This document shows positions 5,751 through 49,666 of a stretch of DNA of 64,000 nucleotides, piece after piece. Made by a program: the position numbers and the translations under genes. This DNA comes from Rhynchonema sp. JSB1_4 (Eukaryota > Nematoda > Chromadorea > Monhysterida > Xyalidae): the NCBI GenBank assembly GCA_030248065.1, contig JASAMV010002806.1, positions 1 to 64,000 on the forward strand, written 5' to 3'. Below the pieces are notes generated by a model, which saw only the letters and a program-made list of their open reading frames with translations, was not told the DNA's origin and searched no databases. How positions within the stretch are numbered: position 1 is the stretch's first letter; each line of letters begins with the position of its first letter.

Positions 5751-6030
5751 ACGCTTTTCAAATTTGATATTGCTTTCAGTAACAGATTTTTGAAGACCTG
5801 CGGCGTCAATTTATTGATTCTAAAATTTACAGTGACTGTTCCCATTTTCGAAATCGATTTGTAGTTCCCTACGAGGCGCCGCAAGGCATTCAAATAACCG
5901 CGAACCGAAGCACTCAACTGCGGATTGGTACCTCGCCTTGTTTTATGTTTCGCACGCATCTCTGCACGGGCACCACCACCACGGACGGTGTCTGAGTCCC
6001 AGTGCTTGTTGTCGGACGTGCATTCGTTCA
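3153..6030 (-). pseudogene. POLB: Polinton DNA polymerase B, 5' half, inverted partial copy
   Basis: This is a partial copy of the protein-primed family B DNA polymerase of a Polinton. It runs on the minus strand and keeps the N-terminal region that the right-arm copy has lost (about 5450-6030). It carries the same exons as the right arm: the Cys/His knuckle CKHCGRDFAF, the exonuclease I-like motif TVDLES, exon junctions around the exonuclease II motif, the exonuclease III motif YYCVADVKC, and polymerase motif A as IDGNSLYP. Coding stops at the GT tract, so motifs B and C are absent and it cannot make a polymerase. Differences from the right copy are single residues, so the duplication is recent. 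Alternatively it reflects a palindromic assembly error. Confidence 0.85.
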
Positions 6031-6155
6031 CTACAAAAATAAAATTGTTAAACAGGAGCAATAAAAAAGTTAAAAAGTAGCAAACGGGAGCAAACAAGAT
6101 AAACAGCAGCAATATTATTTTATTGCTCCTGTTTGCATCTTTTTATCTTCTTCCT
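5751..6155. other. Spacer at the centre of the inverted duplication
   Basis: About 405 bp lie between the two arms. It holds the N-terminal polB coding sequence of the left copy plus a short foldback: the word AACAGGAGCAATAAAA at 6051-6066 is repeated inverted at 6118-6133. The nested foldback is what a template switch at a hairpin would leave. Confidence 0.75.
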
Positions 6156-6160
6156 GAAAA

Positions 6161-10806
<4,646 letters not shown>

Positions 10807-30479: not shown

Positions 30480-30943
30480 TAAGGGCCTTGGGTCACCAGA
30501 ATGAGCACCAGCAAAGCAAGACTAAACAAAGCACAACAGTAACAAGCAACAACCGTTTTTTGGAGAAATACACTCTAAACTAGCTTAAGAACTACACTAA
30601 AATAGGAAATAATCACTATCACGAGACCACAACTGAATAAAACTGAAACGAACGAGGAAACCCAAAACAAGCCACGCCACGAGAAAGCTTACACTAGTTT
30701 TCCGACGCAATAAAAACTAATTCAAGAGATATCGCATAATCACATTTTTGCATTTTTACATTCACAGTCAGCTGCGGAGGGACCGGCTGTTCAGTTCATC
30801 CAGTGATAAAGCGTAGACCAGGAGCGCGTGGATCACAACCCCATCCAGCCTGAGACCGGCAAGTCAAACCATTTTGCAAACTTCTTTGCAATCTTCTTTA
30901 TTTAGCTTTCAGAGGTGGCGATTCGATGAAGAGGAGATTGAGT
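30480..30943. repeat. Unclassified repeat preceding LINE copy 1
   Basis: Matches 33880-34349 and 49150-49631 closely. It has no coding capacity. All three copies lead directly into the TAG-repeat start of a LINE 3' end, so it is either a preferred target or part of an older duplicated block. Confidence 0.75.
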
Positions 30944-32095
30944 AGTAGTAGTAGTAGTAGTACTTTTATTTCGTTTCAGACACGAAAAGGGTAAACATCA
31001 ACAACCGCTCGAGGCATGGCAGTAACGATGAATACCTGGTTTTTACAATTTAGCGGCACCAATTACATAAAGAGTTGGAGTACATTTGCATGAATATAAT
31101 AATTCAATAATAATGTAATAATGTAATATTGACAACGTTACACAACTGACACACACAATAATATTTACGCGCCACACCACAACACGATATGAACATTATG
31201 CAATTTCGACTTTTCTTTCACATACAGTACATCTTCATCGCTGGACACCCATTTACAAAATTTTGAAAATTTTGACACTACAATATCAGCAGGCAAACAG
31301 TTGTACACATTGAACATCAATACAAGAGGTGAAGAGCACAAGACAGAATATTTGCATCTGGGTACCGTAACAGCACGGGAATGATTGGAACGAGAACTTT
31401 TGCGATTTGACACAGTAGTTTTCAGTACAATAAAACCAACAGGAAAATGACGGAAACCACAGACATACATGTGCATCAACTTCATACGCCTAGAGAAAAC
31501 AATTGAGCTGTTAGCACGAACACCAAACAAATCAAGTAGGGTAGTAATCAACAGCACGATTCCAATTTCAGAGAAACAGACGAATAGAATACTTTTGAGT
31601 TCGCTCAAACAAGTCACGATCACGATTATGGGTGGGATATACGGCTTCAAAGGCATACAAGAGAACAGATTGCCACAATGTAACATAGAAGTATCGACGA
31701 ACATTCCATGAAACATCACGAAGCAACACACGATTTAAATATCCAGCATTACGTTTCACTCAAGCGCAACTAATAGTTGCGTGATCAGACATATCAAATT
31801 TGGAATCAATATCAGCAAAAGATATTTATGAGATTGCACAACAGTGACAGGCTCGGCATTGACAGTAATAGTGGGAGCAATCAGAAGTGGACTGAACTGA
31901 GTGAAATGATGGATAACCAGTGCCAACTTGAAACCACTCGGCCAAACGCCTGTTCTTACGATACGGTTCATCCAGAGCTGACAAACCGGGAGCGATCGCC
32001 TGCGTACCTTCTTTCAGCATTTGCTAGGCGGTCGGTGCACGGGTCAAACATAACGTCCGTGCTGGGCACCACCGGGTCACCATTGGTGTTCCAGA
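30944..32095 (-). mobile_element. LINE copy 1 (3' half), decayed
   Basis: Minus-strand non-LTR retrotransposon. The 3' end is a TAC-type trinucleotide tail, seen on the plus strand as TAG repeats at about 30944-30961. The C-terminal RT-side coding region (31165-31760) matches copies at 34.6 kb and 49.9 kb. It is broken into several frames. Relative to copy 2, a stretch upstream of about 31912 is missing. The hAT-like element is inserted at its upstream edge, at 32096. Confidence 0.75.
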
Positions 32096-32099
32096 TAGG

Positions 32100-32360
32100 G
32101 CTCGCGCGGGAAATTTTTTCCGGCGGAATTTCGCGGGAGGGAGGGAAATTTGCGGGAAATTTCCCGTTCCCGTTTCCCGGGAAATATTTTCGATAGTGCC
32201 ATTTCCCCCGGGAAACACTGCCTGAAAATTCCCGCGGGAAATTTCCCGCGGGAAATCGGCCATTTCCCGCTTTTTCCCGTCCTTCGACCATTTCCCGCGC
32301 AGGAATTCCAGTCAGTAATTCCCGTGAAGTTTCCCGCGGGAAACGGGAAATCGAAACGAC
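32100..32360. repeat. Left subterminal TTTCCCGCGGGAAA array
   Basis: Over a dozen half-sites (TTTCCCG or CGGGAAA), many fused as palindromes. Subterminal motif arrays bind transposase in known hAT elements such as Ac/Ds; the same role here is inferred. Confidence 0.8.
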
Positions 32361-32774
32361 CATATCATCTTTTGTTGGCTTTTCATCATTAATATTTTTT
32401 GGAAATAGACTTTTTGTCTCTTTCAGCCCTGTTCAGGAGGATCAGGACCCTGAGCAATTTACTTAGACTGCTATTTTCAACTTACAATTAGCGGCTCAGG
32501 CACTGAACTGATCAATCAGCAATTCACAGATTTAATGGCAGTGTGTGTATCCAGAATGCTCGCTTGAACGTGTCTCAGCATGAGCAGGCCTGAACTCTTG
32601 GCAAATACTCTTACAGTTGTTGTTCGTCCTCCAAAGGGCAACTTGACCTTTACTTTTACATTGCCAGTTTACATCAACAAACAACAGGAATTGTCGTCCA
32701 CTTTTTAAAACATCTAAAGGAACGCTTATAGCGGCCAGCCATTTCATTAGTAACTTCTCAAACCAAAAAATTGG

Positions 32775-33118
32775 GGCGGGAACTTTACGGGAAATATCTG
32801 TTTTCCGCGGGAAATTCCTATTTTCAGCGAGAAATTTAAGGGAAATTCCTGTTTTGCGAGGGAAATCTGCGGGAAATATCGCCATTTCCCGCGGGAAATT
32901 TCCCGTTTTCCCGCATTTCCCGCGGGAAATTTCCCGTCCTTCAAATAGGCATTTTCCCGCAATTTCCCGTCCTTCAAAATTCTGAAAACCATTTCCCGCG
33001 ATATTTCCCGTCCTTCAAAATTCCAAACTTCCATTTCCCGCAAGAAGTCCCGGACCCTTGGGGAAAACGGGAAATTTCCCCAACTTTTCCCGTCCTTCAA
33101 AAAAAATTTCCCGCGCGA
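32775..33118. repeat. Right subterminal TTTCCCGCGGGAAA array
   Basis: Same motif, interleaved with a TTTCCCGTCCTTCAAA unit repeated about six times. Confidence 0.8.
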
Positions 33119-33124
33119 GCCCTA

Positions 33125-33350
33125 GTTCCAGACACTGTGGAAGTAGGTTGCAAGCAGCTCAACTTTACCCTGACTGTCAGCAACCAACTCACCATCAGCA
33201 GTCTGGAGTGGCGGCAACTCAGACGCCAGTTTGCCCGTGTAGTCATAAAAACTATGGCAGAGCTGTTTGGGATTACTGAGATTTGTGATGTTTGAACGCA
33301 AATACCCAGCCTGTGCCTTTCTGACTTCATTTCGGACAGTCCGGCGCAGG
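33125..33350 (-). pseudogene. LINE fragment, region before the RT core
   Basis: Matches 48030-48270 and 51355-51546. It carries the conserved LQTADGELVADSQGK-type segment in a frame broken elsewhere. It is continuous with LINE copy 1 once the hAT insertion is removed. Confidence 0.7.
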
Positions 33351-33375
33351 TTGTAGTAGTGTGTTCAAAAGGTGG

Positions 33376-33885
33376 TCAGCCAAAAACTGCCCGAAACGAA
33401 AAAAAATGAGCGCTAAAGCAAAAAATAGTGGCATTTTTCTTCCATAACGTGTGGTAAGTGCATATAAAGCACTGACGACACGAAAACAATACCAAACAAT
33501 GGTCAATGAGTACCAACAGTAGTCAGGTACACACACGTACACTTCCCCCACGTGGTGAGTGTGCAATCGTGTGGCTTTGTGACACTCAAGACGGCAAATT
33601 TGGGTGAAACTATTGCCTCTTGGTACACGACCAATGCAAATATGTGACAAACAGTGTAAATGTAGAGTGAATATCAAACCGAATCACTGCTTTCGGGTCT
33701 GTTGCATGCAATATGCAACTTTTGAAACGAATTTTTTTTAATTTTTCTTAATGAAAAATTTTTTTTAAAAACCACCAGCCAGCAGGCGGCAGTGGATCAT
33801 TGCAGTGTTGTTTGGCTGAGTCAGTTGCTAAATTGGGGGTGTTTCCGGTCTGCGCTCGACGGGACTGAGTGCGGCAGCGATTCTG
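33376..33885. repeat. Unclassified repeat R, copy 1
   Basis: About 510 bp shared with 48651-49160 and 58434-58940. It begins near GCCAAAAACTGCCCGAAACG. There is no coding frame common to all copies. It has A/T-rich runs near its end. Confidence 0.75.
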
Positions 33886-34349
33886 TGGGATGTTCTTGGG
33901 TCACCAAAATGAGCATTAGCAAAGCAAGACTAAACAAAGCTAAACAAAGCACAACAGTAACAAACAACAACCGTTTTTTGGAGAAATACACTCTAAACTA
34001 GCTTAAGAACTACACTAAAATAGGAAATAATCACTATCACGAGACCACAACTGAATAAAACTGAAACAAACGAGGAAACCCAAAACAAGCCACTCCACGA
34101 GAAACCTTCGCTGGTTTAATAAAAACTAATTCAAGAGATATCGCACAACCACATTTTTGCATTTTTACATTCACAGTCAGCTGCGGAGGTACCGGCAGTT
34201 CAGTTCATCCAGTGATAAAGCGTAGACCAGGAGCGCGTGGATCACAACCCCATCCAGCCCGAGACCGACAAGTCAAACCCTTTTGCAAACTTCTTTGCAA
34301 TCTTATCTAGCTTTTAGAGGAGGCGAATCGATGAAGAGAAGATTGAGTA
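33886..34349. repeat. Unclassified repeat preceding LINE copy 2
   Basis: Second copy of the sequence at 30480-30943, with small insertions and deletions. Confidence 0.75.
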
Positions 34350-35773
34350 CTAGTAGTAGTAGTAGTAGTAGTAGTACTTTTATTTCGTTTCAGACATGAA
34401 AAGGGTAAACATCAACAACCGCTCGAGGCGTGGCAGTAACGATGAATACCTAGGTTTTTACAATTTAGCCGGCACCAATTACATAAAGAGTTGGAGTACA
34501 TTTGCATGAATACAATAATTCAATCTTATAATAATGACAACGTTACACAACTGACACACACAATAATATTTACGCGCCACACCACAACACGATCTGAACA
34601 GTCTGCAATTTCGACTTTTCTTTCACATACAGTACACCTTCATCGCTGGACACCCATTTACAAAATTTGGAAAATTTTGACACAACAATATCAGCAGGCA
34701 AACAGCTGTACACATTGGACATCAATACAAGAGGTAAAGAGGACAAGACAGAATATTTGCATCTGGGTACCGTAACAGCACGGTAATGATTGGAACGAGA
34801 ACTTTTGCGATTTGACACAGTAGTTTTCAGTACAATAAAGCCAACAGGAAAATGACGGAAACCACAGACATACATGTGCATCAACTTCATACGCCTAGAG
34901 AAAACAATTGAGCTGTTAGCACGAACACCAAACAAATCAAGTAGGGTAGTAATCAACAGCACGATTCCAATTTCAGAGAAACAGACGAATAGAATACTTT
35001 TGAGTTCGCTCAAACAAGTCACGATCACGATTATGGGTGGGATATACGGCTTCAAAGGCATACAAGAGAACAGATTGCAACAATGTAACATAGAAGTATC
35101 GACGAACATTCAATGATACATCACGAAGCAACACACGATTTAAATATCCAGCATTACGTTTCACTCAAGCGCAAGTAATAGTAGCGTGATCAGACATATC
35201 AAATTTGGAATCAATATCAGCAAAAGATATTTATGAGATTGCACAACAGTGACAGGCTCGGCATTGACAGTAATAGTGGGAGCAATCAGAAGTGGACTGG
35301 ACTGAGTGAAATGATGGATTTTGGTTTTGTTGGGATTGATTGTGAGTAGCTTTGATGAGAAATGCTCGGTGATTGAGTTCACGTCTGCCTGCCCTCAATT
35401 TCAGTTTTGGAGAGGAATTAGCGTACGCACCATATAATTGAGGACCAAGCACAGAACCCTGAGCAACACCAGAAAGAACAGGCAAAGCCCGAGAATGACG
35501 CGAACCTACACTGACAATTTGAGAGCGATCTGTTTTAGAACTTATGTTTCTATTCCATAATCATGAGCAAAACAAAGATGGAAGCAGAAATGGAATGAAT
35601 ATTACTACAGATTGGGAGTTTAGCGATAGGACGGTAGTCGGATGGTTTGCACATGGTTACTTTGGCATTGGAGTAACCAGTGCCAACTTGAAACCACTCG
35701 GCCAAACGCCTGTTCTTACGATGCGGTTCATCCAGAGCTGACAAACCGGGAGCGATCGCCTGGGTACCTTCTT
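34350..35773 (-). mobile_element. LINE copy 2, decayed
   Basis: Minus-strand non-LTR retrotransposon with a TAG-repeat 3' end at about 34350-34376. The reverse-transcriptase region includes GVAQGSVLGPQL (35440-35485), the conserved motif before the catalytic YxDD, and a C-terminal segment with NRDRDLFERTQKYSIRLFL. Several frameshifts separate these pieces. Its upstream part joins directly to the truncated second hAT copy at about 35774. Confidence 0.8.
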
Positions 35774-36078
35774 CAGCAATTCACAGATTTAATGGCAGTG
35801 TGTGTAACCAGAATGCTCGCTTGAACGTGTCTCAGCATGAGCAGACCTCAACTCTTGGCAAATACTCTTACAGTTGTTGTTCGTCCTCCAAAGGGCAACT
35901 TGACCTTTACTTTTACATTGCCAGTTTACATCAACAAACAACAGGAATTGTCGTCCACTTTTTAAAACATCTAAAGGAACGCTTATAGCGGCCAGCCATT
36001 TCATTAGTAACTTCTCAAACCAAAAAATTGGGGCGGGAACTTTACGGGAAATATCTGTTTTCCGCGGGAAATTCCTAT
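35774..36078 (+). mobile_element. hAT-like element copy 2, left remnant
   Basis: Matches 32514-32820 of copy 1. The left end of the element has been lost. It is interrupted at 36078 by the large LTR element and resumes at 47723. Confidence 0.85.
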
Positions 36079-36722
36079 TGTGATCTGCTGCCGTCCTAGG
36101 GAGCTCGTCGACGGGGCAGATGCACTTGAGCACGCCACCTTCTGTCACTCGCCAGACAGTCAGAAACGCGCCCGGACCAACAAGAGTCACGCCAAAGTAA
36201 CCGTCTCAGCGCGCGAGTCAGCCCTGGACCAAAATCCACACGCCTCGCGATGGCAACTCGGACGGCGCGGCTTGATCCTGGTGACAATCCAGTCACCCGC
36301 TTTCCTGCAATGAAATGAAGCAAGCAAACGGTCTCAGGCAGGCAAGCACAAAAACCGACAAGACAAGCCCAGCAATCTAGCTGGCTGTTTCGCTTCCACG
36401 TATTGCACGAAAAGCACCCCGAAGTCGACTTCGACAGCACGTTTTACGCTATATAACGAATAACGGAAATAAATGAATAAAGGATAGAATTAACGGCAAT
36501 AATAATATCAATATCCAATAAAATATCGCGACTCCAAAACGTCTCCGACGAAACACGAAATTACACTGAATTACGAGAAGAGAGAAGAGAGAAACGGCGA
36601 TAAAGTCCATCGCTGAGCCATCCATTTGAATTTCCATGCTCAGTCACAGTCAACACACTCGCAGACGACTCTCACAGTCTGTTTTGACGACGATGTGAAG
36701 ACGGCATATGTCCAATGTCACA
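36079..36722 (-). repeat. 3' LTR of the giant-ORF element
   Basis: 644 bp. On the minus strand it carries a TATATAGC TATA-like box inside the LTR. Confidence 0.92.
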
Positions 36723-36735
36723 TCTCCCCGCACCA
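36723..36735 (-). other. Polypurine tract
   Basis: The minus strand reads GCGGGGAGA immediately before the TGTGAC start of the 3' LTR, the expected site for plus-strand priming. Confidence 0.7.
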
Positions 36736-37009
36736 GTTGCTTCAAATGCCCTCATTTGATCGATGTTGAATGAAGAAGAATAGAAGCTGTTCGTGTCCAC
36801 CCGGCCATAGTTGGAGTAGGCCTTGAAGAAACCGTCGAACGAATAGGGATCGCAGATGGCAACGACGACGAATTGAATAGCACACCAGCGATGAAGACAG
36901 ATTGAATTGAATAGAGTTGTCGTGTGGATATAGCAGTCAGGATACGGGTTTTCACCAGTCACCGAAGTGGGTTTCACCGTACCCTGCCGAAGCAAGAGGT
37001 GTGGGTTAC

Positions 37010-40000
37010 TCACCCCAAATCCCAGACGAACACCCGCAGGTGATACACCGCTCGTACCGGTTTAAGTCCTGACAGATAATAGAGCAGCTGCAAGCCCATA
37101 GGCGCAGGCTGATCCACGATGGAGACGGTTTCGGCAGCGAAGGTGGACGGCAAGCTGGGTAGACGACCAGCCAACCCCTCGAAGGTTGTCACCTCAGGTG
37201 AAGAAGCCCTGTCCGGTGACCACCAGAACATCACGACACCAGCGTCGTCGACACCATGTCCATTGGTCTCATAGAACTCGTCAATCCATGCCTCCAGCTC
37301 CTCCAGGTCACCGATCGGTTTCGGGCTGAGCATGAACGTCAGATGATGATTGCGCTGTCGCAGCTCAATCATCATGTCCACAATGCGGGTCAACGCAATG
37401 CGGCATTCGACCATTTTCGACGTCCAGACTCCCTGGAAACGGCCCGTATACACCTGATACCACATGTTGCCCATGTGTGCATGTCTGGCAGGTGCACCAA
37501 TCGCATTTTGGTACTGTTGGATCGTGCCCTGGAACTGGCTGGGCTCAATGACCTCACGCGTGGCATCATCCAGCATGGGTTCATAGCATTGCGGATTGCA
37601 ACATTCGTCCTCCTGAGTCTCATCATTCCAGTACACGTCAGCCGTGCAACGTTCACAGCACTTGATGACATGGAACACGACCCAGGGTACGACGGGCATG
37701 TCGTACAGATTCATTTTCACGCCGGTGTTTGGCGCCATCGTCGGGTATTTGGCCATGTTGAGCTGCTCTTGCAAAGTCAGCTTGTTCCAACCCGACACGC
37801 GTTCTTTGGCACTCAAGCCATCTTTGTCCGGGTTCAACTGAACAGCGAATTGTGAGTACGGACGGCCCTCATAGTGGCCATGTGTCAAGCCCCGTGACAA
37901 TGGGTCAATCAGGTTGTACTCATCCATCACTCGAATGTAGATTTGTGATCGCGGTTTCAGAAATTTGAGGGACACGCGATATTCGGGTTTGAGTGCAGGA
38001 TCGTACCAGACCACATCATCAGGCGTCTGTGCATAGGTCTCCTCATGCAAGGCCTCAAATCCGTCTGAGTCTGAGCGGATTTCACCAGAGCCCTGCGATG
38101 GTGGTTCGTTCACAGAATCCACGTCTTCGGCCTCAGTCTGTTGCAACGGTGAGGCCTCCGGCTCTTCCATAGCCAGCTCACCACCGTGCACCGGTTCGTC
38201 ACCGATCATTCTGCGCTGAGCCTCAAACGTGCGCAGCTGTTGGTAACTGCGTTGCAACATGTTCACAGTTTCTTGTGGCTCGCAATTCATCAAGTCACCA
38301 GCTGACTGCAGCAGCTTGTAAGCCACGGTCGTGTCATCTTCGGCCTGTGCGCGCACTATCGTTTGGTATCGCTTGCCACACAGCGAAATCACTTGCTTAG
38401 CCCAATCACGGACTGGCGGACTAGCATGATTCAGCAAGTCGACAATGGTCTGATATGAGGTCGGCACGCCCGGCGGCAAAGCAAATGCCTGGGCCATGTG
38501 CATGCCGATCAAGCAGTCAGCATGTGCCTCAATGTTCGATTGAGTTGGTCGGCCAAATATGGTCGGCGTGTTTGGTGCCGACAACGGATCAGTCAACGGC
38601 ATGGGCTTCAGCCGATGTTTCATGGCAGTGATTTGCGCGTTCAGAATATCACACAGGCGCAACATCTCTTCGCCTTCAGCCTGCCAAATTTCCTTGTCCA
38701 CAGCCTGGGCCATCATGAACACCAAGTACAGATGGTACAGGGTCACTTCTGAACCCGCTGGCTCTGCGGACTGACTGACACGTTCAATCAACGTGCGGGC
38801 TTTGTCGACCCAAGCCTTGACGTCCTGTTTTGACTGCGGGATATCGTCCCATTTCAACTTGAACTGTTCGAACGTGACGAGTCCGAACTCGCTTTCGCGC
38901 TGTGGCATTGTCTGACGTGCCTTGCGCAACCGTTCAGCACACGAATCAGCAGCCTGATCATCAGGTTCAGCTGTCGTGAACACGACCTCACCAGCGTCGG
39001 TTTTGTTCACCAGAGCCTGCGCCATCTTGCGCACCGAATAAGCGCTCAAGCCACAGGTCGGCTCGTTCTGTTCATGCCGAATGGAATTGTCGGCCAACGC
39101 CAGTGCGGCTTGCAGCGAACTGCCAAGCTCCTCCAGTGAACCCAGTGGCAACCTGGGCGAGTCACCAGTGTATCGTGGTGGCCAATCTGTCTGACGATTG
39201 AACTGATATGCCGGCAGATTTTTCAAGTGACCGGCCAAATGCATGTAGATAGTGCACACGGCCACGCGTTTCGACTCCTCAGTCTTAGCCGGCATACTCA
39301 TGTAGCCGCGCGACAGTGGATTGTGGAGCCGTTTGTGATGACCATAACGCAGGTCATGCAGCACAAAGAAGGCAAAATTCAGTTCCTTCAAGTCAGCGTC
39401 AGTGACCACTTTCTGATGCACTGCACCACCGGTCTTTTTGTACCATTTCGCGGGCACTTTGGTACGTGTCTGATTGTACCTCAAACGGAACAACTTGCGT
39501 TCCTCATCCTGATCAGACACCGAATCCTGCTTGCTCGTCGGCACACAGTCCTTCAGCAGACGTGGCTTTTTCATGTGCAACAGATGCACATTGCCGACAC
39601 TTTGGGGAACCACAGTCTGGTTGTCATATTTCAGTGCCAATGTTGCATAGGCCAACTGCACAGTTGTGGTGTATCGCTCACCACTCAGAAACGGCAGTTT
39701 GGACGTCTCCATGTAGTCACTCATGGCATCTGACGCCAGTATCACGGACATGTGCTGTGTGTGTTCGATCGGTTTCATGAAATCGATCTCGGGAACACCA
39801 AACTCAACCCGATCGTTCGTGATGGCAGCCGTACGTTTGCTTTCAAGCATGGCTGGTTGTTCATTCAATCGGTCTGCAGCCGACGCCAGCACATATGCAT
39901 TGCCACTCACAAGCGGCACATTGATTTCGGGATCAATCTCGAACCCGGTCCACATGTGCATTTTGTACTCCTGCGCCTGATCCGAAGAACAGAGCGCCAC

Positions 40001-42934
40001 AGCCACGTGATTGCACACCAGTTGTGTGTAATTCGAATTGTCAGACGTGGCGAAGTACATGACCGGTGTACTGTCAAACGGTTCGGTCAGACCTTGCGAG
40101 TCAATCGCAATGTATGGGGACCGAAATTCCTCCACCGGTGCACCACTTCGGTACAATGAGCGCTTGTACACGTTCGGCTTCATCACATTCATGTACAGCG
40201 GGCCAGCCAATCTCGACTCGGCCGCATGGTTGAGCAAGGCGAAACAGGCCATCGGGTCCCGTTCGCCTGCGGTGTTCAGGCTGTTCTCCACGCCCACCGT
40301 GCTGATGGGCTGCATCAGTTCACAACACACATGCACGCTGCGCAGATAATATTGCAGCATCAGATCACCAGCCTCCAGCAACAACGCTGTGGTAGGCACT
40401 TTTGATGGGTCCCTGGTGCCCATGACTGCGGTGCTGATCTTAGCACCAGCCAAATTGCAGAATTCACGGCCCACTTCGACAATACGCAGCTCAACCTGCT
40501 GTCGATCCAGTGGCTTGTTTGTGGCCGTCATTTCGTCTGTCAGGATTTTGGAGAACGATTTTGCACAGTGCAACACTGTGGCCAGCACCAAGTCGACAGG
40601 TGCCTCGTTCTCGCGCCACGCGATTGGTTGTTGTTTCAGATCTTGTTTGAAATCATCACGTGCGTTCAGCAGCACATCAGGCGCTTCAACGCCATTCATG
40701 CACGTGAGTGGATTGGTCAAGCGTCCACTTTCAACGAACTGCAGCATGGTTTGCAGCGAACCACGCAAAGGACGCATAATTTCGTCATCGTACCGTTTCG
40801 GGTCACACACAGCAAGCACGTACATGCAATCAATGCCCTCTTGCACGTCTTGTGCGGCATACCAGTACTTGCACTGTGTGGATTCGTCGTTCAAATTGCC
40901 CATGTGCATACGGTCCAGCCAGCCAGCATGGTACATGTCTGCACCTGGCACCTCACCGGCCGTATAGGCAAAATCACACGGTTTGTTCTCAAGATACGTG
41001 CTGCTCGTATAGCGACGCATCTTGTCTTTCTGGGCCTTCATCGTGTGGCTGTCACGCAAAATATGCAATGTGCCCAATGTCATCATCTGGTGCGATGGGC
41101 CACCATGTTCCTCATTCATGCTCATGGACATTGGCAATTTGCGCGAATCAAACACGATCGCGGACATGTCACAGCCAAATGCGCGAGCAAACGCAACCTG
41201 ATCACCGTGTTTGCGATTGCGACGGTCCTGATCATGGGTACCGTGCATGTAGAACACGCCCGCGTTCTGCAGGTCATTCACCGACGGATCGTCACAAAAC
41301 AGCTGCTTGAACTCATCACACGGTTCGTCTGAGCCGGGTTTGTTCACACAACCCGCTTCAATGATCCACACGACACCTGTGAAGAATGCCACCTGCAGCA
41401 GCACCAGAATGTCGTAGTCACACCATTCCTCTGTCGTGGTGTGAATCACCTCGTGTGTGGTCCAGTAGGGCAGCACGCCCCACTTCTCCATGCACATGTG
41501 CATGAGCAGCTCGTTCGCACTTTTGGTCTTCTTTTTCAGTGCCGTGAAGAAGCTCGTATCGAAATCTGTGGACTGGAAGTGATCGAATTCAGCATCGATC
41601 ATGGCACCTCCCAGCATGCGACGAGCACGCATGGCGATCTTTGTGAACTCCACAAAATGGTCATATGAGTCCACCACAATGACCTGTTTGATCACGCCCA
41701 GTGGCCTACGTGCGGCCAACATGCACTGATACCAGCTCATGATCAGATTATACATCATCGTGATCTTGGCTGATGTATTCTGGGCACGCGCACCATATTC
41801 CAGCGTGACAATGCCCTTCAAGGCAGTCACCATGTATTTGTGCGTGTTTTGAATGCCGATGTAACTGGCGGCCTGTTCCATCTTGTGCAGCACTGCCTGC
41901 AGCACTTCAGTCGACAATTCACGAGCCGTACACGCCAAGTACAGCACTCGTGTGTTTTCGAACATTTTGGCCATGCCCCGATATGAATTTGGCACAGCGC
42001 ACGGCTCATTGGTGTTTGCTGCATTGCACGCACCATCCCAGCCTGTGCGCATCGGGTCCAACATAGCCATATGGTGGTTCGGCATTCGTTTGTTGACCGA
42101 GATCACACCCGGTTTCATGGCATCGAACCAACCGATTTTATTGTTCTTGGCATCACGGCCGAAGAAACCCTTCGTGGCCACGGTCATGTGGTCCACCTGT
42201 CGCAAATCGGTGTTCTTTTCACGTTCAATTTCACTGAACGGCACTGGCAGCATGTGCCCGGTCGACAGGGCCTCCTGACGCTCCTCATAGCGCCGGCTGA
42301 TGTTCAAACCGTCAACCGGTTTGTGGCGTTGTGCGCGTCCAAACAGGTCCACCTGACCAATGTGCAACACCTTGCACAAACGACGCAAGCGCAGCAACGG
42401 GCTGCCAGCAAACACGCCCCGCAACCAGTCACTGTGGATGCGGTCGGGCTGTTTGTCGTTCACCATCACCATCGGTCGATTCAGTGGATCCGGGTCCCAA
42501 AAATTCACCTCTGAGGACCCAGGGGCCCGGTCCATCCTGCGGTACTGTTCCAGTTTCAGGCCCAGTCGGTGCAACGGCTCACCTCTGAGCGTCACAGTGC
42601 CTTGTGGTGTCTGGAATTTCATCACACCAGCACCTTGCGAGTTAGCAACACTCGCGTCTGGGGCAGGTTCATGTGCCCCGGCACTGGGATCCGGCACCGT
42701 TTCCATCTGGGTATCGGTGCCCTCACTGGCACCTGCAGTCGTACTGGAACCTGTCGTCACCGGGTCGGTGTGGGTGACGGACTCTCCGGCAGCAGCCTGC
42801 ATCTGCTCCTGAGTCTCATAGATGTCAACCTCGTCACCACCGCCCAACAAAGCCTCTTCTTGCTCTGCAGTCAACCCCGTCTCACCTGGATCTGCTCGTT
42901 TTCGGGACTGCGATCTTCGGCCCCGTTTGCTCAT
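37010..42934 (-). CDS. Giant 1,974-residue ORF of unknown family in an LTR element
   Basis: Uninterrupted 1,974 codons, same strand as pol, in the position retroviruses use for env. I see no signal peptide or membrane span, so it is not a usual envelope. The first residues are basic (MSKRGRRSQSRKR), followed by about 100 disordered Thr/Ala/Gly/Pro-rich residues. The long middle is mixed alpha/beta, with many Met and His. A Cys cluster near residues 1756-1785 (CCERC ... CCNPQC) could bind zinc. An acidic linker lies near 1600-1690. I see no polymerase, helicase or protease motif. Size and composition recall capsid proteins of toti-like double-stranded RNA viruses, but this is only an impression. 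The TGA stop overlaps GGTGAGT, a strong splice-donor word. An intact frame this long beside a wrecked pol suggests recent activity or selection. Confidence 0.85.
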   Translation of the reverse strand: MSKRGRRSQSRKRADPGETGLTAEQEEALLGGGDEVDIYETQEQMQAAAGESVTHTDPVTTGSSTTAGASEGTDTQMETVPDPSAGAHEPAPDASVANSQGAGVMKFQTPQGTVTLRGEPLHRLGLKLEQYRRMDRAPGSSEVNFWDPDPLNRPMVMVNDKQPDRIHSDWLRGVFAGSPLLRLRRLCKVLHIGQVDLFGRAQRHKPVDGLNISRRYEERQEALSTGHMLPVPFSEIEREKNTDLRQVDHMTVATKGFFGRDAKNNKIGWFDAMKPGVISVNKRMPNHHMAMLDPMRTGWDGACNAANTNEPCAVPNSYRGMAKMFENTRVLYLACTARELSTEVLQAVLHKMEQAASYIGIQNTHKYMVTALKGIVTLEYGARAQNTSAKITMMYNLIMSWYQCMLAARRPLGVIKQVIVVDSYDHFVEFTKIAMRARRMLGGAMIDAEFDHFQSTDFDTSFFTALKKKTKSANELLMHMCMEKWGVLPYWTTHEVIHTTTEEWCDYDILVLLQVAFFTGVVWIIEAGCVNKPGSDEPCDEFKQLFCDDPSVNDLQNAGVFYMHGTHDQDRRNRKHGDQVAFARAFGCDMSAIVFDSRKLPMSMSMNEEHGGPSHQMMTLGTLHILRDSHTMKAQKDKMRRYTSSTYLENKPCDFAYTAGEVPGADMYHAGWLDRMHMGNLNDESTQCKYWYAAQDVQEGIDCMYVLAVCDPKRYDDEIMRPLRGSLQTMLQFVESGRLTNPLTCMNGVEAPDVLLNARDDFKQDLKQQPIAWRENEAPVDLVLATVLHCAKSFSKILTDEMTATNKPLDRQQVELRIVEVGREFCNLAGAKISTAVMGTRDPSKVPTTALLLEAGDLMLQYYLRSVHVCCELMQPISTVGVENSLNTAGERDPMACFALLNHAAESRLAGPLYMNVMKPNVYKRSLYRSGAPVEEFRSPYIAIDSQGLTEPFDSTPVMYFATSDNSNYTQLVCNHVAVALCSSDQAQEYKMHMWTGFEIDPEINVPLVSGNAYVLASAADRLNEQPAMLESKRTAAITNDRVEFGVPEIDFMKPIEHTQHMSVILASDAMSDYMETSKLPFLSGERYTTTVQLAYATLALKYDNQTVVPQSVGNVHLLHMKKPRLLKDCVPTSKQDSVSDQDEERKLFRLRYNQTRTKVPAKWYKKTGGAVHQKVVTDADLKELNFAFFVLHDLRYGHHKRLHNPLSRGYMSMPAKTEESKRVAVCTIYMHLAGHLKNLPAYQFNRQTDWPPRYTGDSPRLPLGSLEELGSSLQAALALADNSIRHEQNEPTCGLSAYSVRKMAQALVNKTDAGEVVFTTAEPDDQAADSCAERLRKARQTMPQRESEFGLVTFEQFKLKWDDIPQSKQDVKAWVDKARTLIERVSQSAEPAGSEVTLYHLYLVFMMAQAVDKEIWQAEGEEMLRLCDILNAQITAMKHRLKPMPLTDPLSAPNTPTIFGRPTQSNIEAHADCLIGMHMAQAFALPPGVPTSYQTIVDLLNHASPPVRDWAKQVISLCGKRYQTIVRAQAEDDTTVAYKLLQSAGDLMNCEPQETVNMLQRSYQQLRTFEAQRRMIGDEPVHGGELAMEEPEASPLQQTEAEDVDSVNEPPSQGSGEIRSDSDGFEALHEETYAQTPDDVVWYDPALKPEYRVSLKFLKPRSQIYIRVMDEYNLIDPLSRGLTHGHYEGRPYSQFAVQLNPDKDGLSAKERVSGWNKLTLQEQLNMAKYPTMAPNTGVKMNLYDMPVVPWVVFHVIKCCERCTADVYWNDETQEDECCNPQCYEPMLDDATREVIEPSQFQGTIQQYQNAIGAPARHAHMGNMWYQVYTGRFQGVWTSKMVECRIALTRIVDMMIELRQRNHHLTFMLSPKPIGDLEELEAWIDEFYETNGHGVDDAGVVMFWWSPDRASSPEVTTFEGLAGRLPSLPSTFAAETVSIVDQPAPMGLQLLYYLSGLKPVRAVYHLRVFVWDLG

Positions 42935-44151
42935 CTCGGCCTTGTCACTTGCTGTCCAACGATGTTGTTGTTCCTCACAGCACTTGACGTCACAAAATCG
43001 AATGCAATTAATGATAGCAGCAATCGAAAATTTGACTCTGAAAAGTGGAGTGAACCATCACTTTGCGCTCTCACGCACAAACATCACAACAAAGCAAAAC
43101 GCGCGAGCGAACAGTGTGGGCTGCCGCATCCATTTTCACAAGCCGCCTCGACCGGCATAATGGCTTTAAAGTGCTCCCCGCACAACAGCGTCAGCCTCAC
43201 ACCGCATGAGCGAGCTGCAAGCCAAATTCACGGTCGTTCTCAACAGGAACGCCCCTTTTTGGCCTCAAAATGTGGAACTGCAACAGTGCAGCCGTCAGTG
43301 GCCACAGACAGAACAAATGACTGGGTGCCTCAGTGACACAGACTGCCAGGCCCCGGGGGTCGATCGCCCCCCAGGGTCTTTTCGACCTGGCCCTAGGCAA
43401 AACACGCCCAGAAATGGTATTCCGCCCATTTTCACAGACTGCCACAGCTGAATTAGCTGTTTTCCTCACAGTTTTGAGCCAAAACATAGGCAAAACGTTC
43501 GGGCCGGAGTGGCCAACTCCCGGCTTTTTGGGGTTTTCGACCTCGCACGTCTGCGGAAACGAAAAATCAGAGCAAAACTCAGCTCCCCCCCAGTTGCGCA
43601 ACACCAACGCAACATTTTCACAGACGTTTGCGGCATTTCAGTGGCATCGGCCCACCTCTCCCTGCGATCCAGCGGGATTCCTGCGATCTAAAACGTTATT
43701 GCAAATGAAATGAGAAAAACAAAATGCGAAACGAAAAGGAATTTCGTCTCCCTTTTTCGCAGAATTTCTCTTTCTTTGTTTTGCAATTTACGGTCCACGG
43801 ACCGTAAAGTCTCGTTTCGGTGCGTCACTTTCCATGCGTCTGGGGTCACCACACCTGCAGTGGGGATAACGCATTCGCACATGCAAACAAAACATGGCGC
43901 ACGTAAGCGCCAACAAAACGGAACTAAAACAGCGGTTAGTTCAACGTAAAAGGCTCGTTTCGACAGAGCCAACACAAAATTTAACGAAAATAAAAGACAC
44001 AGCCCGAGCAAAGGGCTGGTCAACATAAAATCACGTGATAAACTCAACGAAATAAAGTCAAACTCAAACATAACGTATAAAATAATAAAATTATAAGCAA
44101 AATAAAGTGTGTACTATATACAATATGTACAATTTTGCTCCTCCGTCAGAG
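42935..44151. promoter_or_regulatory. 1.2 kb gap between pol and the giant ORF
   Basis: No coding sequence. It contains a perfect inverted repeat with 10 bp arms TTTACGGTCC (43787-43808), a GC-rich palindromic stretch near 43354-43380 (GGGGGTCGATCGCCCCC), and A/T-rich sequence next to pol. Since LTR elements normally have no such gap, it may hold a separate promoter or splice acceptor for the giant ORF. That is an inference. Confidence 0.45.
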
Positions 44152-44889
44152 TTACTGCTCCGACGCGTCCGTGCCCCGCAAGTTGTAGCGCGCATTCGAC
44201 TTTCTGCCGCTTTTCACAACTTGCTTCAGCTGAAACTTCTGCGTTTCGGGCACATACACAACCGAGTGACCAGTCCACACCTGTTCATGCGAAATCTCGT
44301 CGGCACAACGCGAGATTTTATCGAGATTCACTGTGAATCGCTGGGTATCACCCTCATCCAGCCGATACACCTCGATCGTGTTGTTTCTGAACACGCGCGT
44401 CACCATGAACGGACCGGTGTGACTGCGAGCGAACTTGTAGTCCTCGCCTTTGGCCACTTTCGGGTCATACACCCAGACCCGTTCACCAACCACAATCGGT
44501 TTCAATTTCGCCTCGGCTTTGGCGCTCATTCGTTTGTGCCTGAGCTCGACTTTGTCCAGTCCGAGCTGCACTTCGCGGTAGATTTCGGGAATCGAGCGCA
44601 CCATTCGGGTCACATAGTCCGGATTGTCATTGTACTTCTGCAGTACACATTCGTCAAACACCGTGTTGGCCGGCAGACGCATCGGTCGACCATGCTCGAC
44701 GAAGAACGGACTCAGACCGGTGCTCACTTGTGGCACGGCATTGTAGTACAGAAGCACCATCGGCAGCACTTCGTCCCAGTCGCTGTTGCCAGGCGGCAGC
44801 GCGCGCGCCAGCATGTTGATAATCGTCTGATTGGCTCGTTCGACAAACCATTGACTGGGGTGGTATGTAGTCGTCACGTTGTGTTTCAC
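44152..44889 (-). pseudogene. pol: Integrase C-terminal part, out of frame with pol
   Basis: 245 codons continuing the integrase core: TTYHPSQWFVERANQTI carries the third catalytic residue (Glu), followed by the ordinary C-terminal domain (VGERVWVYDPKV, FMVTRVFRNNTIEVYRL). It overlaps the end of the upstream frame by four bases. A one-base change near 44888 separates the second Asp from the Glu. Without ribosomal frameshifting the integrase is dead. No chromodomain is apparent. Confidence 0.85.
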
Positions 44890-46964
44890 TTAACATTGAT
44901 ACCCTCGTGCAGTTTGCCAGTGAACTGTGCGCCCTGATCTGTGACGCACACGCGCGGCACGCCGTGTTCACGAATGTACTGGATGTACATGTCAATCACG
45001 GTCTCAGCGGCCATGTCCGGCATCGGATAGGCGTTCACGTACTTCGAAAACGCATCAACCAGGACCAGCAGATAGACATTGCCCCTTGACGTCATCGGCT
45101 TCAACGTCAGAATGTCCATGTGCACTCGTTCGCTCGGCGCGAACGTTCGTTCCAACGAACCAATCGGCGGTTTCAGCCGTCGATGCTGACCCGACACAGT
45201 GGCACAGTCAAAACACGATGCGTAGTGTTTGGACGCGTCCTTTAGCATTCCCAGCCAATGGAACTCGCGCCTCAGCCACATGGTCATTTTGTCGACGCCG
45301 AAATGACCACCCAGTTCATGCACCTCCTTCAGCAGGTCCTTTTGCTTGCTTTTCGGCACACACAACTGCACTCGACCACCTTTGTCATACACGTGCCGAA
45401 TGATACTCGTGTCGTCCACGAAATATTCACCGAAATGTTTTTCGATGTATTTGTCAAATTCGGTTTCCGGCTCGGGCAGCGGTTTCAACGGATGCTCCAG
45501 CTTGAGCTTCAACCGCGCCAAGAATTCATCGCCGGCTTGTTGTTCGATGATCTTGTCACGAACATCGGTACTGACCTCTTCGGTCGTTTTGCCGGTCAGC
45601 TCGACGTGCATCTCATTCGCGTCAGGCACGTCATCGTTCTCCGGGATCGTCGTCAGCGACGGTGCCTGTTTTATGCGACGTCGACGCATGCCGACTTTCA
45701 TCACCGTGACGTTCTCGCATTCGTCACGCAATTGTCTGAGGTCCGCCTCTTTCGTGATCGGCAGACAGTCACCATCAGACGCGCAGTCACAGCGCACTTT
45801 GTTCACGTGCGCCACGAGTTCACCCTCGTTTTCGGCCTCGTCAAACAGCTCATCGACGTCAAACTCGATGTCGTCATCGTCAAACTCGTCGTTCGACCAA
45901 TAATCCGAGTCACAGTCAGACTCGTCAGCAGCACACGAGTTCACAGCCACGTCAGCCGGCTCGGCAGTGTTCTTTTCCTGCCATTCGATCGCTTGCTGTT
46001 CGGACTCTTTGATCATGCGATCGATCTCGTTCCGGAACCAGTTGGCACGATCGATCTTGTCTTTCGGATCGTGCAGGTCTTTCGGAATGCGGCTGAGGCA
46101 GTCGGGCACATGATTGCCACGACCGGGCGTGTACACCACTTTTGGGTTCATCATCGCGATGCTGGTGACCCACTTTTCGACACGCTTGTTGCCTCGCATG
46201 CGCTGATTCATGCAATCTTGCATGGCAACATGGTCAGTCACGACCAAAATGTCGTGTCCACGCAGATAATTGTCGAACTTGTCCAGAGCCCACTTGATGG
46301 CCAGACATTCGAGTTCGGTCGCGCTGTAATTCGACTCAGCGGCGTTGGTGGCGCGTGATGCATAGGCCACCGGATGCAGCTTGTCATCCGAGCCGATCTG
46401 TTCGAGCACGGCACCCAAACCAGCCGAACTGGCATCCGTGCGCACCACCCATGGTTTATCCATGTCGGGATAGACCAGCATGACGTGTTCACTCGTCAAT
46501 CTGCGCTTCAACTCATTGAACGCTTCATCCTGCTGCTTGGACCAGCGGAATTGTTCATCGACCTTCATCAGTCGGTTCAGCGGCGATGCGATCTTCGAGC
46601 AGCCGGGAATGAACTGTCGATAAAAGCCGACCATTCCCATGAAGCGACGCACGCCCTGCTTGTTCACCGGCGGCTTCATGTCACAAATTGCCGCCACTTT
46701 GTCCGGATTCGGGCGAATGCCCTCGGCGTCCAACACGAAGCCCAAATATTTGACTTCGGACTGCAGGAAGTTGCACTTCTTCGGCTGCATCAGCAAGCCG
46801 GCCTCTTCCAACCGTTCAAACACGCGTTTCAGCACTTCCATGTGCTCCTCGACAGTCTGGGTCGCGGTTTGTGTGACTTTTACCGAAGGTTTGGCCTCAA
46901 ACCGACACTCTCTGTGAACCAGCGCAACGTGGCCCACAAGGAATATACGCACAAATGTACGCAA
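44886..46964 (-). pseudogene. pol: Truncated Ty3/gypsy pol: RT thumb, RNase H, integrase
   Basis: 692 open codons. The first recognisable sequence (residues 35-85, with VFERLEEAGL and KKCNFLQSEVKYLGF) is the part of reverse transcriptase that follows YxDD, so fingers and catalytic palm are missing. RNase H follows (VRTDASSAGLGAVLEQ, ATELECLAIKWALDKF, VVTDH). Next are a long acidic spacer, the integrase HHCC zinc finger (HELGGHFGVDK ... CFDC) and catalytic Asp residues in HMDILTL and TDQGAQF. Then the frame ends. Only about 100 bp separate the primer site from the first codon, which shows where gag, protease and RT were deleted. Confidence 0.9.
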
Positions 46965-47034
46965 ATCAACTTGCCCTCACCTCCCCCTCTCAGAAGGTCT
47001 GACCCCAGACCGGCTCCTTGGCCGTAACTGCGGG

Positions 47035-47060
47035 TTGGTTCACTTGTCGGGCTCACCACT
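47035..47060 (-). other. Primer-binding site
   Basis: The minus strand directly after the 5' LTR reads AG then TGGTGAGCCCGACAAGTG. TGG at this place is the complement of a tRNA CCA end. I cannot name the tRNA. Confidence 0.6.
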
Positions 47061-47722
47061 TGTGATCTGCTGCCGTCCTAGGGAGCTCGTCGACGGGGCA
47101 GATGCACTTGAGCACGCCACCTTCTGTCACTCGCCAGACAGTCAGAAACGCGCCCGGACCAACAAGAGTCACGCCAAAGTAACCGTCTCAGCGCGATAGT
47201 CAGCCCTGGACCAAAATCCACACGCCTCGCGATGGCAACTCGGACGGCGCGGCTTGATCCTGGTGACAATCCAGTCACCCGCTTTCCTGCAATGAAATGA
47301 AGCAAGCAAACGGTCTCAGGCAGGCAAGCACAAAAACCGACAAGACAAGCCCAGCAATCTAGCTGGCTGTTTCGCTTCCACGTATTGCACGAAAAGCACC
47401 CCGAAGTCGACATCGACAGCACGTTTTACGCTATATAACGAATAACGGAAATAAAGGAATAAAGGATAGAATTAACGGCAATAATAATATCAATATCCAA
47501 TAAAATATCGCGACTCCAAAACGTCTCCGACGAAACACGAAATTACACTGAATTACGAGAAGAGAGAATTTACGATTTAGAAGAGAAAAGGAAACGGCGA
47601 TAAAGTCCATCGCTGAGCCATCCATTTGCATTTCCATGCTCAGTCACAGTCAACACACTCGCAGACGACTCTCACAGTCTGTTTTGACGACGATGTGAAG
47701 ACGGCATATGTCCAATGTCACA
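47061..47722 (-). repeat. 5' LTR of the giant-ORF element
   Basis: 662 bp, matching 36079-36722 apart from an insertion near 47568-47592 and scattered substitutions. Confidence 0.92.
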
Positions 47723-48029
47723 CTATTTTCAGCGAGAAATTTAAGGGAAATTCCTGTTTTGCGAGGGAAATCTGCGGGAAATATCGCCATTTCCCGCGGG
47801 AAATTTCCCGTTTTCCCGCATTTCCCGCGGGAAATTTCCCGTCCTTCAAATAGGCCTTTTCCCGCAATTTCCCGTCCTTCAAAATTCTGGAAACCATTTC
47901 CCGCGATATTTCCCGTCCTTCAAAATTCCAAACTTCCATTTCCCGCAAGAAGTCCCGGACCCATGGGGAAAACGGGAAATTTCCCCAACTTTTCCCGTCC
48001 TTCAAAAAACATTTCCCGCGCGAGCCCTA
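47723..48029 (+). mobile_element. hAT-like element copy 2, right remnant
   Basis: Matches 32822-33124 of copy 1, including the TTTCCCGTCCTTCAAA units and the right terminus GCGCGAGCCCTA. It is followed by GTTCCAGA, the same target word as copy 1. Confidence 0.88.
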
Positions 48030-48270
48030 GTTCCAGACACTGTGGAAGTAGGTTGCAAGCAGCTCAGCTTTACCCTGACTGTCAGCAACCAACTCACCAT
48101 CAGCAGTCTGGAGTGGCGGCAACTCAGACGCCAGTTTGCCCGTGTAGTCATAAAAACTATGACAGAGCTGTTTGGGATTACTGAGATTTGTGATGTTTGA
48201 ACGCAAATACCCAGCCTGTGCCTTTCTGACTTCATTTCGGACAGTCCGGCGCAGGTTGTAGTAGTGTGTT
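48030..48270 (-). pseudogene. LINE fragment, region before the RT core
   Basis: Near-identical to 33125-33350, including broken frames. Confidence 0.7.
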
Positions 48271-48280
48271 CAAAAGGTGG

Positions 48281-48645
48281 TCTCAAAAGCAGGAAACAAA
48301 AAAAGAAGCGACCAACAAAAGTGAAAGTTTCCCCAAAAAACTACCTGGTTAACGTGAAAAAGTAACTACAGCTGATAGAGGAATATTTTTTTACATTGGT
48401 ATACCACAAAATTTTACGAAAACAGACACAGAACAGGACCAAAGGATCAAAACAGAAAAAAACAAAAAATCAAACACGCGCGCCCCGTTGAAACGTTACG
48501 AATAAGTGGAGAAGAAACAAAGGAGAGCAAAGGAACCGCACAAGGTCGCGTGTAGCTGTCAGATTTAGGCAGCAGCAGTGGTTAATAAAAAAAGTTTTTT
48601 ATTCACATCCCATTTTTTTAAAAAAATTCTTTTTAAATTTTTTTT
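48281..48645. repeat. Unclassified repeat S, copy 1
   Basis: Matches 58046-58430. Lysine-rich in translation, with no domain recognised and no common start codon. Confidence 0.7.
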
Positions 48646-48650
48646 ATTCC

Positions 48651-49160
48651 AGCCAAAAACTGCCCGAAACGAAAAAAATGAGCGCTAAAGCAAAAAATAG
48701 TGGCATTTTTCTTCCATAACGTGTGGTAAGTGCATATAAAGCACTGACGACACGAAAACAATACCAAACAATGGTCAATGAGTACCAACAGTAGTCAGGT
48801 ACACGCACGTACACTTCCCCACGTGGTGTGTGTGCAATCGTGTGGCTTTGTGACACTCAATACGGCAAATTTGGGTGAAACTATTGCCTCTTGGTACACG
48901 ACCAATGCAAATATGTGACAAACAGTGTAAATGTAGAGTGAATATCAAACCGAATCACTGCTTTCGGTTCTGTTGCATCCAATATGCAACTTTTGAAACG
49001 AATTTTTTTTAATTTTTCTTAATGAAAATTTTTTTTTAAAAACCACTAGCCAGCAGGCGGCAGTGGATCATTGCAGTGTTGTTTGGCTGAGTCAGTTGCT
49101 AAATTGGGGGTGTTTCCGGTCTGCGTTCGACGGGACTGAGTGCGGCAGCGATTCTGTGGG
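48651..49160. repeat. Unclassified repeat R, copy 2
   Basis: Second copy of 33376-33885. Confidence 0.75.
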
Positions 49161-49631
49161 ATGTTCTTGGGTTACCAGAATGAGCACTAGCAAAGCAAGA
49201 CTAAACAAAGCTAAACAAAGCATAGCAGTAACAAACAACAACCGTGTTTTTGGAGAAATACACTCTAAACTAGCTTAAGAACTACACTAAAATAGGAAAT
49301 AATCACTATCACGAGACCACAACTGAATAAAACTGAAACAAACGAGGAAACCCAAAACAAGCCACTCCACGAGAAAGCTTACGCTGGTTTTCCGACGCAA
49401 TAAAAACTAATTCAAGAGATATCGCACAACCACATTTTTGCATTTTTACATTCACAGTCAGCTGCGGAGGGACCGGCAGTTCAGTTCATTCAGTGATAAA
49501 GCGTAGACCAGGAGCGCGTGGATCACAACCCCATCCAGCCTGAGACCGACAAGTCAAACCCTTTTGCAAACTTCTTTGCAATCTTATCTAGCTTTTAGAG
49601 GAGGCGAATCGATGAAGAGAAGATTGAGTAC
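49161..49631. repeat. Unclassified repeat preceding LINE copy 3
   Basis: Third copy of the sequence at 30480-30943. Confidence 0.75.

Positions 49632-49666
<35 letters not shown>

Follow-up and report, generated by a model that had tools for sequence, protein, structure and literature searches.

Extra open reading frames (ORFs) in the env position are common in long terminal repeat (LTR) elements, and many are without homology or evidence of use. In bdelloid rotifers, the LTR elements Juno and Vesta carry an ORF3 of the DEDDy type (PMC5408684), DnaQ-like exonucleases have been called well known among the accessory domains of LTR elements (PMC6338049), and CERV, encoded by Cer1 of C. elegans, serves the export of the unspliced genome (PMC10309623). 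Here we describe ORF3 of a Ty3/gypsy-type element in a 64,000-nucleotide stretch of the nematode Rhynchonema sp. JSB1_4 (contig JASAMV010002806.1, positions 1 to 64,000; hereafter the window). We give a probability of about 0.62 to the reading that the window ORF, 1,974 codons in length, is a damaged copy of a maintained ORF3 with a probable DEDDy-type exonuclease-like domain, belonging to a Ty3/gypsy-type element of an invertebrate. Extra ORFs of Ty3/gypsy-type elements are an ordinary class, of which this is an unusual member in both size and constraint, as the ORF is very large (7.1 kb) and is carried by two diverged lineages under selection approaching that on pol. Among the papers listed in searches of the open-licence literature, judged by title and abstract opening, none deals with this element.

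Compared by description and not by sequence, as are all comparisons here with CERV and with the ORF3 of Juno, Vesta and Athena, the protein resembles that of Juno and Vesta in its RNase D-like DEDDy 3′-5′ exonuclease (here probable), its env position in an invertebrate LTR element and its lack of env features (PMC5408684). The homology is called strong for Juno and Vesta, whereas here it is marginal, the motifs lying inside a protein of ∼2,400 amino acids (aa) of otherwise unknown family; and the extra ORFs of bdelloids are said to evolve within genomes without significant departure from neutrality, whereas the ratio of nonsynonymous to synonymous substitution rates (dN/dS) is 0.04–0.14 here (PMC5408684). 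Like ORF3, CERV is a large ORF between pol and the 3′ LTR of a Ty3/gypsy element, without clear env similarity. It is however 517 aa long (ORF3: ∼2,360–2,404 aa), has its first exons in the gag frame, and is made from a spliced mRNA, whereas here an acceptor-like site alone is seen; exonuclease motifs are not mentioned in the excerpted description (PMC10309623). Burro of planarians and Ogre of plants are likewise oversized Ty3/gypsy elements with extra coding capacity, but the extra domains of Burro lie within one polyprotein of 4,873 aa, whereas here a separate 7.1 kb ORF stands 3′ of pol, and Ogre, besides extra ORFs to which no function is assigned, has LTRs of 1.9–6.5 kb, as against ∼0.66 kb here (PMC6431247).

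The status of ORF3 within the element is revealed by a copy in C3381, in which a single open gag-pol frame of 2,639 codons contains three CCHC motifs, protease DSG (at 1121), the reverse transcriptase (RT) with YLDD (RVT_1, 1617–1776), RNase H (1840–1968) and integrase (2235–2404), an order of pol domains on which, rather than on an RT phylogeny, the Ty3/gypsy assignment rests. A 1.2 kb spacer follows gag-pol and is followed in turn by ORF3. The length of the full element, ∼19 kb, is a sum from two copies and not one assembled sequence (∼15.2 kb from the LTR edge to residue 1903 in C3381, ∼2.5 kb from residue 1903 to the LTR in C3362, and two LTRs). As C3381 has a separate gag within its open gag-pol, ORF3 as the Gag of the element was rejected, and ORF3 is the third gene of a ∼19 kb Ty3/gypsy-type element. 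At ∼100 nt before the start of ORF3, all five family-1 copies and both family-2 copies that were read (families defined below) have TTTTCAG or TTTTNCAG followed by A. This acceptor-like site, the acceptor side alone of a possible intron, would fit a spliced subgenomic message for ORF3, as for env or CERV. In both lineages, Gag has an additional CCHC motif at its extreme N-terminus (residues 36–49 of the gag-pol in L016, residues 44–57 of the gag in L034), besides two CCHC motifs further on.

Two families of ORF3 are present in the genome (203.9 Mb, 5,747 contigs). The window ORF gave at least 29 matches, of which 26 (window included) are copies or fragments of family 1 at 72–100% identity and 3 match at 32–37%, whereas the family-2 protein gave at least 23, with 19 in family 2 at 77–100% and 4 in family 1 at 33–34%; these counts are lower bounds, with only the best candidates scored. 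In C2778 the family-2 homologue, 34% identical to the ORF3 of family 1, runs open for 2,404 codons counted from its ATG. Two regions stand out in identity between the families, namely residues 552–752 (50 and 45%) and the C-terminal knuckle (51%); elsewhere identity is 19–40%, except for a low-complexity stretch of 62 positions in the tail (45%). C1710, a copy of the second lineage, shows an LTR, primer-binding site, gag (51% identical to that of family 1 over 266 aligned positions), the last part of integrase and the first part of ORF3; its LTR is a ∼97% match to the LTRs that lie 3′ of ORF3 in C2778 and C3723. Since gene order and primer-binding site are the same as in family 1, ORF3 would be older than the split of the two lineages, or else was exchanged between them long ago. 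All element loci examined were chosen for holding ORF3, so that copies devoid of it would escape notice. An internal deletion in C1710 (L034 2566–6927, minus strand) fuses gag and protease in frame to the end of integrase, leaving an open frame of 1,453 aa.

We estimated dN/dS among copies by the Nei–Gojobori method. In family 1, values of 0.043–0.136 were obtained in 10 of 10 pairs (residues 1–1903; residues 1–966 for the four pairs with C1532), the highest being those of the four pairs with the window copy (0.109–0.136), and the two pairs of family 2 gave 0.037 and 0.102. For pol (residues 1733–2390), 6 of 6 pairs gave 0.036–0.073. Between the families, dS is saturated (2.7). The values for ORF3, far below 1, demonstrate purifying selection that falls little short of that on pol, and ORF3 is a maintained gene and not a one-off capture. 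Selection of this kind, together with the presence of the gene in two diverged lineages, indicates that ORF3 does something the element needs. The genome search for further elements and the dN/dS comparison had both been proposed in the original prediction, which held that a one-off capture decaying neutrally, or a clear match to an ordinary host gene, would count against it; neither was found, and further family-1 copies as well as a diverged second lineage came to light.

The window ORF is itself genuine, as the longest open run in 200 mononucleotide shuffles, read in three frames each, did not exceed 275 aa, but it is not intact as had been supposed. The copies in C3362, C217 and C3381 are 96–97% identical to it over residues 1–1903, then diverge from it and continue where the window copy, ∼2.0 kb shorter, does not; from the ATG, ORF3 is open for 2,361 codons in C3362 and 2,360 in C217, and that of C3381 runs off the contig without a stop. 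The 502 bp after residue 1903 in the window correspond to the sequence adjoining the 3′ LTR in C3362, ∼2.0 kb further on and past the stop codon. This placement implies a deletion of ∼2.0 kb in the window copy, the last ∼70 residues of which are thus 3′ untranslated sequence. The C-terminus lost in this way comprises, in the open copies, a knuckle-like motif (CAVCAHSHTKC in family 1, spacing CX2CX3HX2C; CAVCMHNHTAEKC in family 2, spacing CX2CX3HX4C) and an Arg/Gly/Ser-rich tail. That the ORF stays open beside a decayed pol had been considered noteworthy. For this copy it is not: its LTR divergence leads one to expect 1.4–1.5 stops since insertion, with a probability of 0.22–0.26 of acquiring none, and the openness of the window copy alone therefore says little.

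Residues 425–720 probably form a DEDDy-type 3′-5′ exonuclease-like domain, to judge from motifs shared by the two families. RNase D, NrnC and Rrp6 (PF01612) have in common D-x-E and Y-x3-D in this order, with an H...D motif between. In the two-family alignment, the ExoI block occupies residues 444–452, the ExoII candidate 563–568 and ExoIII 692–696; D-x-E (D447/E449) and Y-x3-D (Y692/D696) occur in the family order and are identical in both ORF3 families, as is D568. Residues 581–600 read AFARAFGCDMSAIVFDSRKL in family 1 and AFVRAFGCELTSVVFDTRKL in family 2, and the equivalents of the four stretches in E. coli RNase D are, from N- to C-terminus, AIALDTEF, FLHAGSEDL, VFLNVFGELPQPLIDTQILA and YAAAD. 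The motifs lie close to the identity peak between the families at residues 552–752, which speaks for the domain. A first, shallow profile, based on 80 loci from Enterobacteriaceae and close kin that also helped to locate domains for the next one, aligned ExoI alone; at least 120 close relatives of E. coli RNase D from a protein-database search were set aside. The DEDDy profile then used holds 36 domains, 31 from bacterial loci, four from PDB chains, and the E. coli sequence (E. coli hence being present twice). With four ordered blocks, the score of the family pair was reached by 1 of 1,000 column shuffles, and with five blocks (ExoII split) by 1 of 5,000 (z 5.1; observed −0.89, reversed −19.5). 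Among ∼2,240 positions the ExoI, beta2-3 and ExoIII blocks each rank first, in order, and ExoIIb ranks third. Unguided hhalign of uncut pieces places residues 506–611 on template positions 38–118 and 685–702 on 145–162, which are the expected places. Of 47 control ORFs, the highest scorer (933 aa, 6.2) is itself a PF01612 protein, and the next reaches −1.1. The support for the domain is suggestive. The earlier statement that the ORF has no known catalytic motif is thus doubtful as regards ExoI and ExoIII, whereas ExoII fits only roughly.

Several observations weigh against this assignment. In ExoII, ORF3 has H-x3-D where 35 of the 36 profile members have H-x4-D; the ExoIIa block comes 57th, and where it scores best the family His falls on H567 and not on H564. 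Relative to E. coli RNase D, ORF3 carries two insertions, one of 50 residues that follows ExoI (E to Q, 65 versus 15 residues) and one of 58 residues between ExoII and ExoIII (124 versus 66). The blocks were drawn up once the motifs had been noticed, and ExoII was split only after the first test. Taken singly, the families do less well: 137 of 1,000 shuffles reach the score of family 1, whose blocks are then placed elsewhere, and 5 of 1,000 reach that of family 2, for which beta2-3 and ExoIIa are placed elsewhere. In raw terms the pair (−0.89) scores about as single-sequence controls do (gag-pol −1.08, a second control −1.1), so that it is notable only in comparison with shuffles of the pair itself. 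With hhalign, uncut pieces attain probabilities of 1.35–3.52% and scores of 19.3–20.1, much the same as the top-scoring one among 38 uncut control windows (19.4); a probability of 12% (score 27.0, E 0.0024) is attained only on removal of residues 456–505. No Pfam family matches the whole window ORF or the open ORF3 copies, which agrees with the ‘unknown family’ of the original prediction; the exonuclease region alone, from either family, finds none at E up to 10 and does not reach the curated cut-off of PF01612. Searches of the PDB by sequence and profile, exonuclease region included, gave chance-level matches only, and a protein database gave nothing above chance, in searches that, like those of Pfam and IMG/VR, reach only limited evolutionary distances. 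Finally, in 5 of the 6 pairs with both measured, dN/dS is higher for ORF3 than for pol.

On the reading of ORF3 as a maintained gene with an exonuclease-like domain, we picture the element as LTR, primer-binding site, one gag-pol ORF, the 1.2 kb spacer with its conserved acceptor-like site, ORF3 (∼2,360–2,404 aa), polypurine tract and LTR. A spliced subgenomic message would encode ORF3, in which the knuckle-like motif and the Arg/Gly/Ser-rich tail might hold the RNA or cDNA of the element, and the exonuclease-like domain may trim or guard 3′ ends while the RNA matures, is exported or is reverse-transcribed. Should the exonuclease assignment be true, this would be a further retroelement with its own 3′-5′ exonuclease, beside those of bdelloid rotifers, and it would become testable whether a very long reverse-transcribed genome needs a partner for end-trimming or proofreading.

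A tentative alternative, clearly less probable than the foregoing, is that ORF3 is a structural or RNA-escort protein (a second Gag-like protein or an analogue of CERV) that coats or exports the unspliced genomic RNA, its exonuclease-like fold being inactive and serving only to bind RNA. The knuckle-like motif and Arg/Gly/Ser-rich tail, the upstream acceptor-like site as for a spliced message, and the imperfect ExoII are all consistent with such a role; inactive DEDD derivatives, EXD1 and Maelstrom, bind RNA (PMC5408684), and CERV, in the same position of a Ty3/gypsy element, is needed for genomic RNA export (PMC10309623). Against it, the ExoI and ExoIII residues and D568 are identical between lineages that share only ∼34% overall, and the likeness to CERV, a protein of only 517 aa, is one of description. 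The ‘second Gag-like protein’ that the original prediction put forward keeps some ground by virtue of the knuckle-like motif and tail in which the open copies end. It is unlikely, by comparison, that ORF3 is a proofreading or 3′-end-repair exonuclease that works with the RT on the ∼19 kb genome and removes mismatched or damaged 3′ ends, as a retroelement counterpart of the exonuclease that allows nidoviruses to maintain very large RNA genomes (PMC7968707).

That the element captured a viral structural gene, such as one for an RNA-virus capsid, as the original prediction had entertained, now appears very improbable. The size of the ORF and its element-borne position would suit such an origin, and phlebovirus-type glycoprotein genes in the same window show that virus-like genes occur in this genome; nonetheless, no above-chance similarity to a viral protein was obtained in Pfam, the PDB, the protein database or one IMG/VR scan based on two peptide patterns, and the exonuclease-like and knuckle-like motifs point to nucleic-acid handling. 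An env-like membrane protein of unknown type has still less to commend it. ORF3 does occupy the env position, and both families have a hydrophobic stretch at about residues 506–530 (windows 506–512; Kyte–Doolittle 2.21 in family 1, 1.91 in family 2), with a second one in family 2 only (1.61, position 1724). The shared stretch, however, coincides with the expected beta hairpin (beta2-3) of the exonuclease, and hydropathy reveals neither an N-terminal signal nor a C-terminal anchor (maxima of 0.84 and 0.54 over the last 400 residues). A usual Env was rejected on these hydropathy grounds, as had been anticipated; the accompanying claim of neither signal peptide nor membrane span holds for the N-terminal signal, but is qualified by the shared stretch. 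The idea that the element recently took up a host gene of no use to it, an origin left open by the absence of any outside homologue in the protein-database searches, can be dismissed almost entirely, as ORF3 forms multicopy families in two element lineages with dN/dS of 0.04–0.14, and all of the at least 29 and at least 23 genome matches fall by identity in the two families (fragment settings not inspected).

Table 1. Coordinates in the window of the element copy, its ORF3 and associated features.
Feature	Position	Strand	Basis
Full span of the LTR element copy (11,644 bp, with internal deletion)	36079..47722	-	LTR pair, target-site duplication on both sides, empty paralogous site
5′ LTR (TG...CA)	47061..47722	-	636/644 aligned positions identical to 3′ LTR, 21 gap columns
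3′ LTR	36079..36722	-	alignment to 5′ LTR
Target-site duplication CTAT, one side	47723..47726	.	flank comparison
Target-site duplication CTAT, other side	36075..36078	.	flank comparison
Primer-binding site TGGTGAGCCCGA	47047..47058	-	identical in C3381 and the second lineage (C1710)
Polypurine tract ending GGGGAGA	36723..36731	-	core also in C2778 (second lineage)
Pol remnant part 1, gag-pol residues 1733–2390 (end of RT, RNase H, most of integrase)	44892..46865	-	tblastn with C3381 gag-pol; Pfam
Pol remnant part 2, residues 2394–2639, different frame from part 1	44155..44889	-	tblastn with C3381 gag-pol
Splice-acceptor-like TTTTCAG, 104 nt before ORF3	43038..43044	-	read in sequence; splice use inferred
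ORF3 (ORFX), 1,974 codons in this copy; residues 1–1903 homologous to the 2,361-aa protein of C3362	37010..42934	-	
Probable DEDDy exonuclease-like region, residues 425–720	40775..41662	-	two-family alignment, block scoring, hhalign
ExoI motif D447-A-E449 (AMIDAEFDH; family 2 FALDLEFDH)	41588..41596	-	two-family alignment, block scoring
ExoII candidate D568 (MHGTHD; family 2 CHGMHD)	41231..41233	-	two-family alignment, block scoring
ExoIII motif Y692-x3-D696 (YAAQD; family 2 YAGHD)	40847..40861	-	two-family alignment, block scoring
Residues 1904–1974, outside the protein in other copies; from 3′ untranslated sequence after ∼2.0 kb deletion	37010..37225	-	

The features expected of a Ty3/gypsy-type element (LTRs with TG...CA ends, target duplication, primer-binding site and polypurine tract) are present around the window ORF (Table 1). 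All those cited earlier as marking the ORF as element-borne were recovered, and an empty site was found in addition: the joined flanks of the element match a paralogous repeat without insertion at 32522–33117 (596 bp, 98.8%, gapless). This site belongs to one copy of another repeat family that surrounds the element (30557–36072 and 47723–49935), the pieces of which are 60–99% identical. By tblastn and Pfam, the window copy has lost gag, protease and the leading part of RT, with YLDD, and its integrase is split across two frames, in agreement with the earlier account of its pol; the damage amounts to one large deletion and one frame break. Palindromes or head-to-head duplications also occur around other element copies, in L020 (1–2041; 2,041 bp, 95%) and L029 (5859–7518; 1,660 bp, 91%), and C217 holds inverted ORF3 copies (L010, L011). 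These fold-back duplications are either real or assembly artefacts.

Elsewhere in the window, two adjacent ORFs on the plus strand (54114–55865) match phlebovirus glycoproteins, weakly for G1 (E 2.7e-4, below the Pfam cut-off) and strongly for the G2 fusion domain (E 1.9e-72); they are perhaps the env of another integrated retroelement or of a large mobile element. A near-perfect palindrome at 3153–8753 has arms of 2,599 nt that are 99% complementary and 403 nt apart, with ORFs mirrored in the two arms, and the ORF at 3375–4121 matches organellar/viral type-B DNA polymerase (E 2.7e-10). An invertebrate host is indicated by the mitochondrial cox1 frame, which looks nematode-like: it contains nine TGA codons and is open throughout when translated with the invertebrate mitochondrial code (TGA = Trp).

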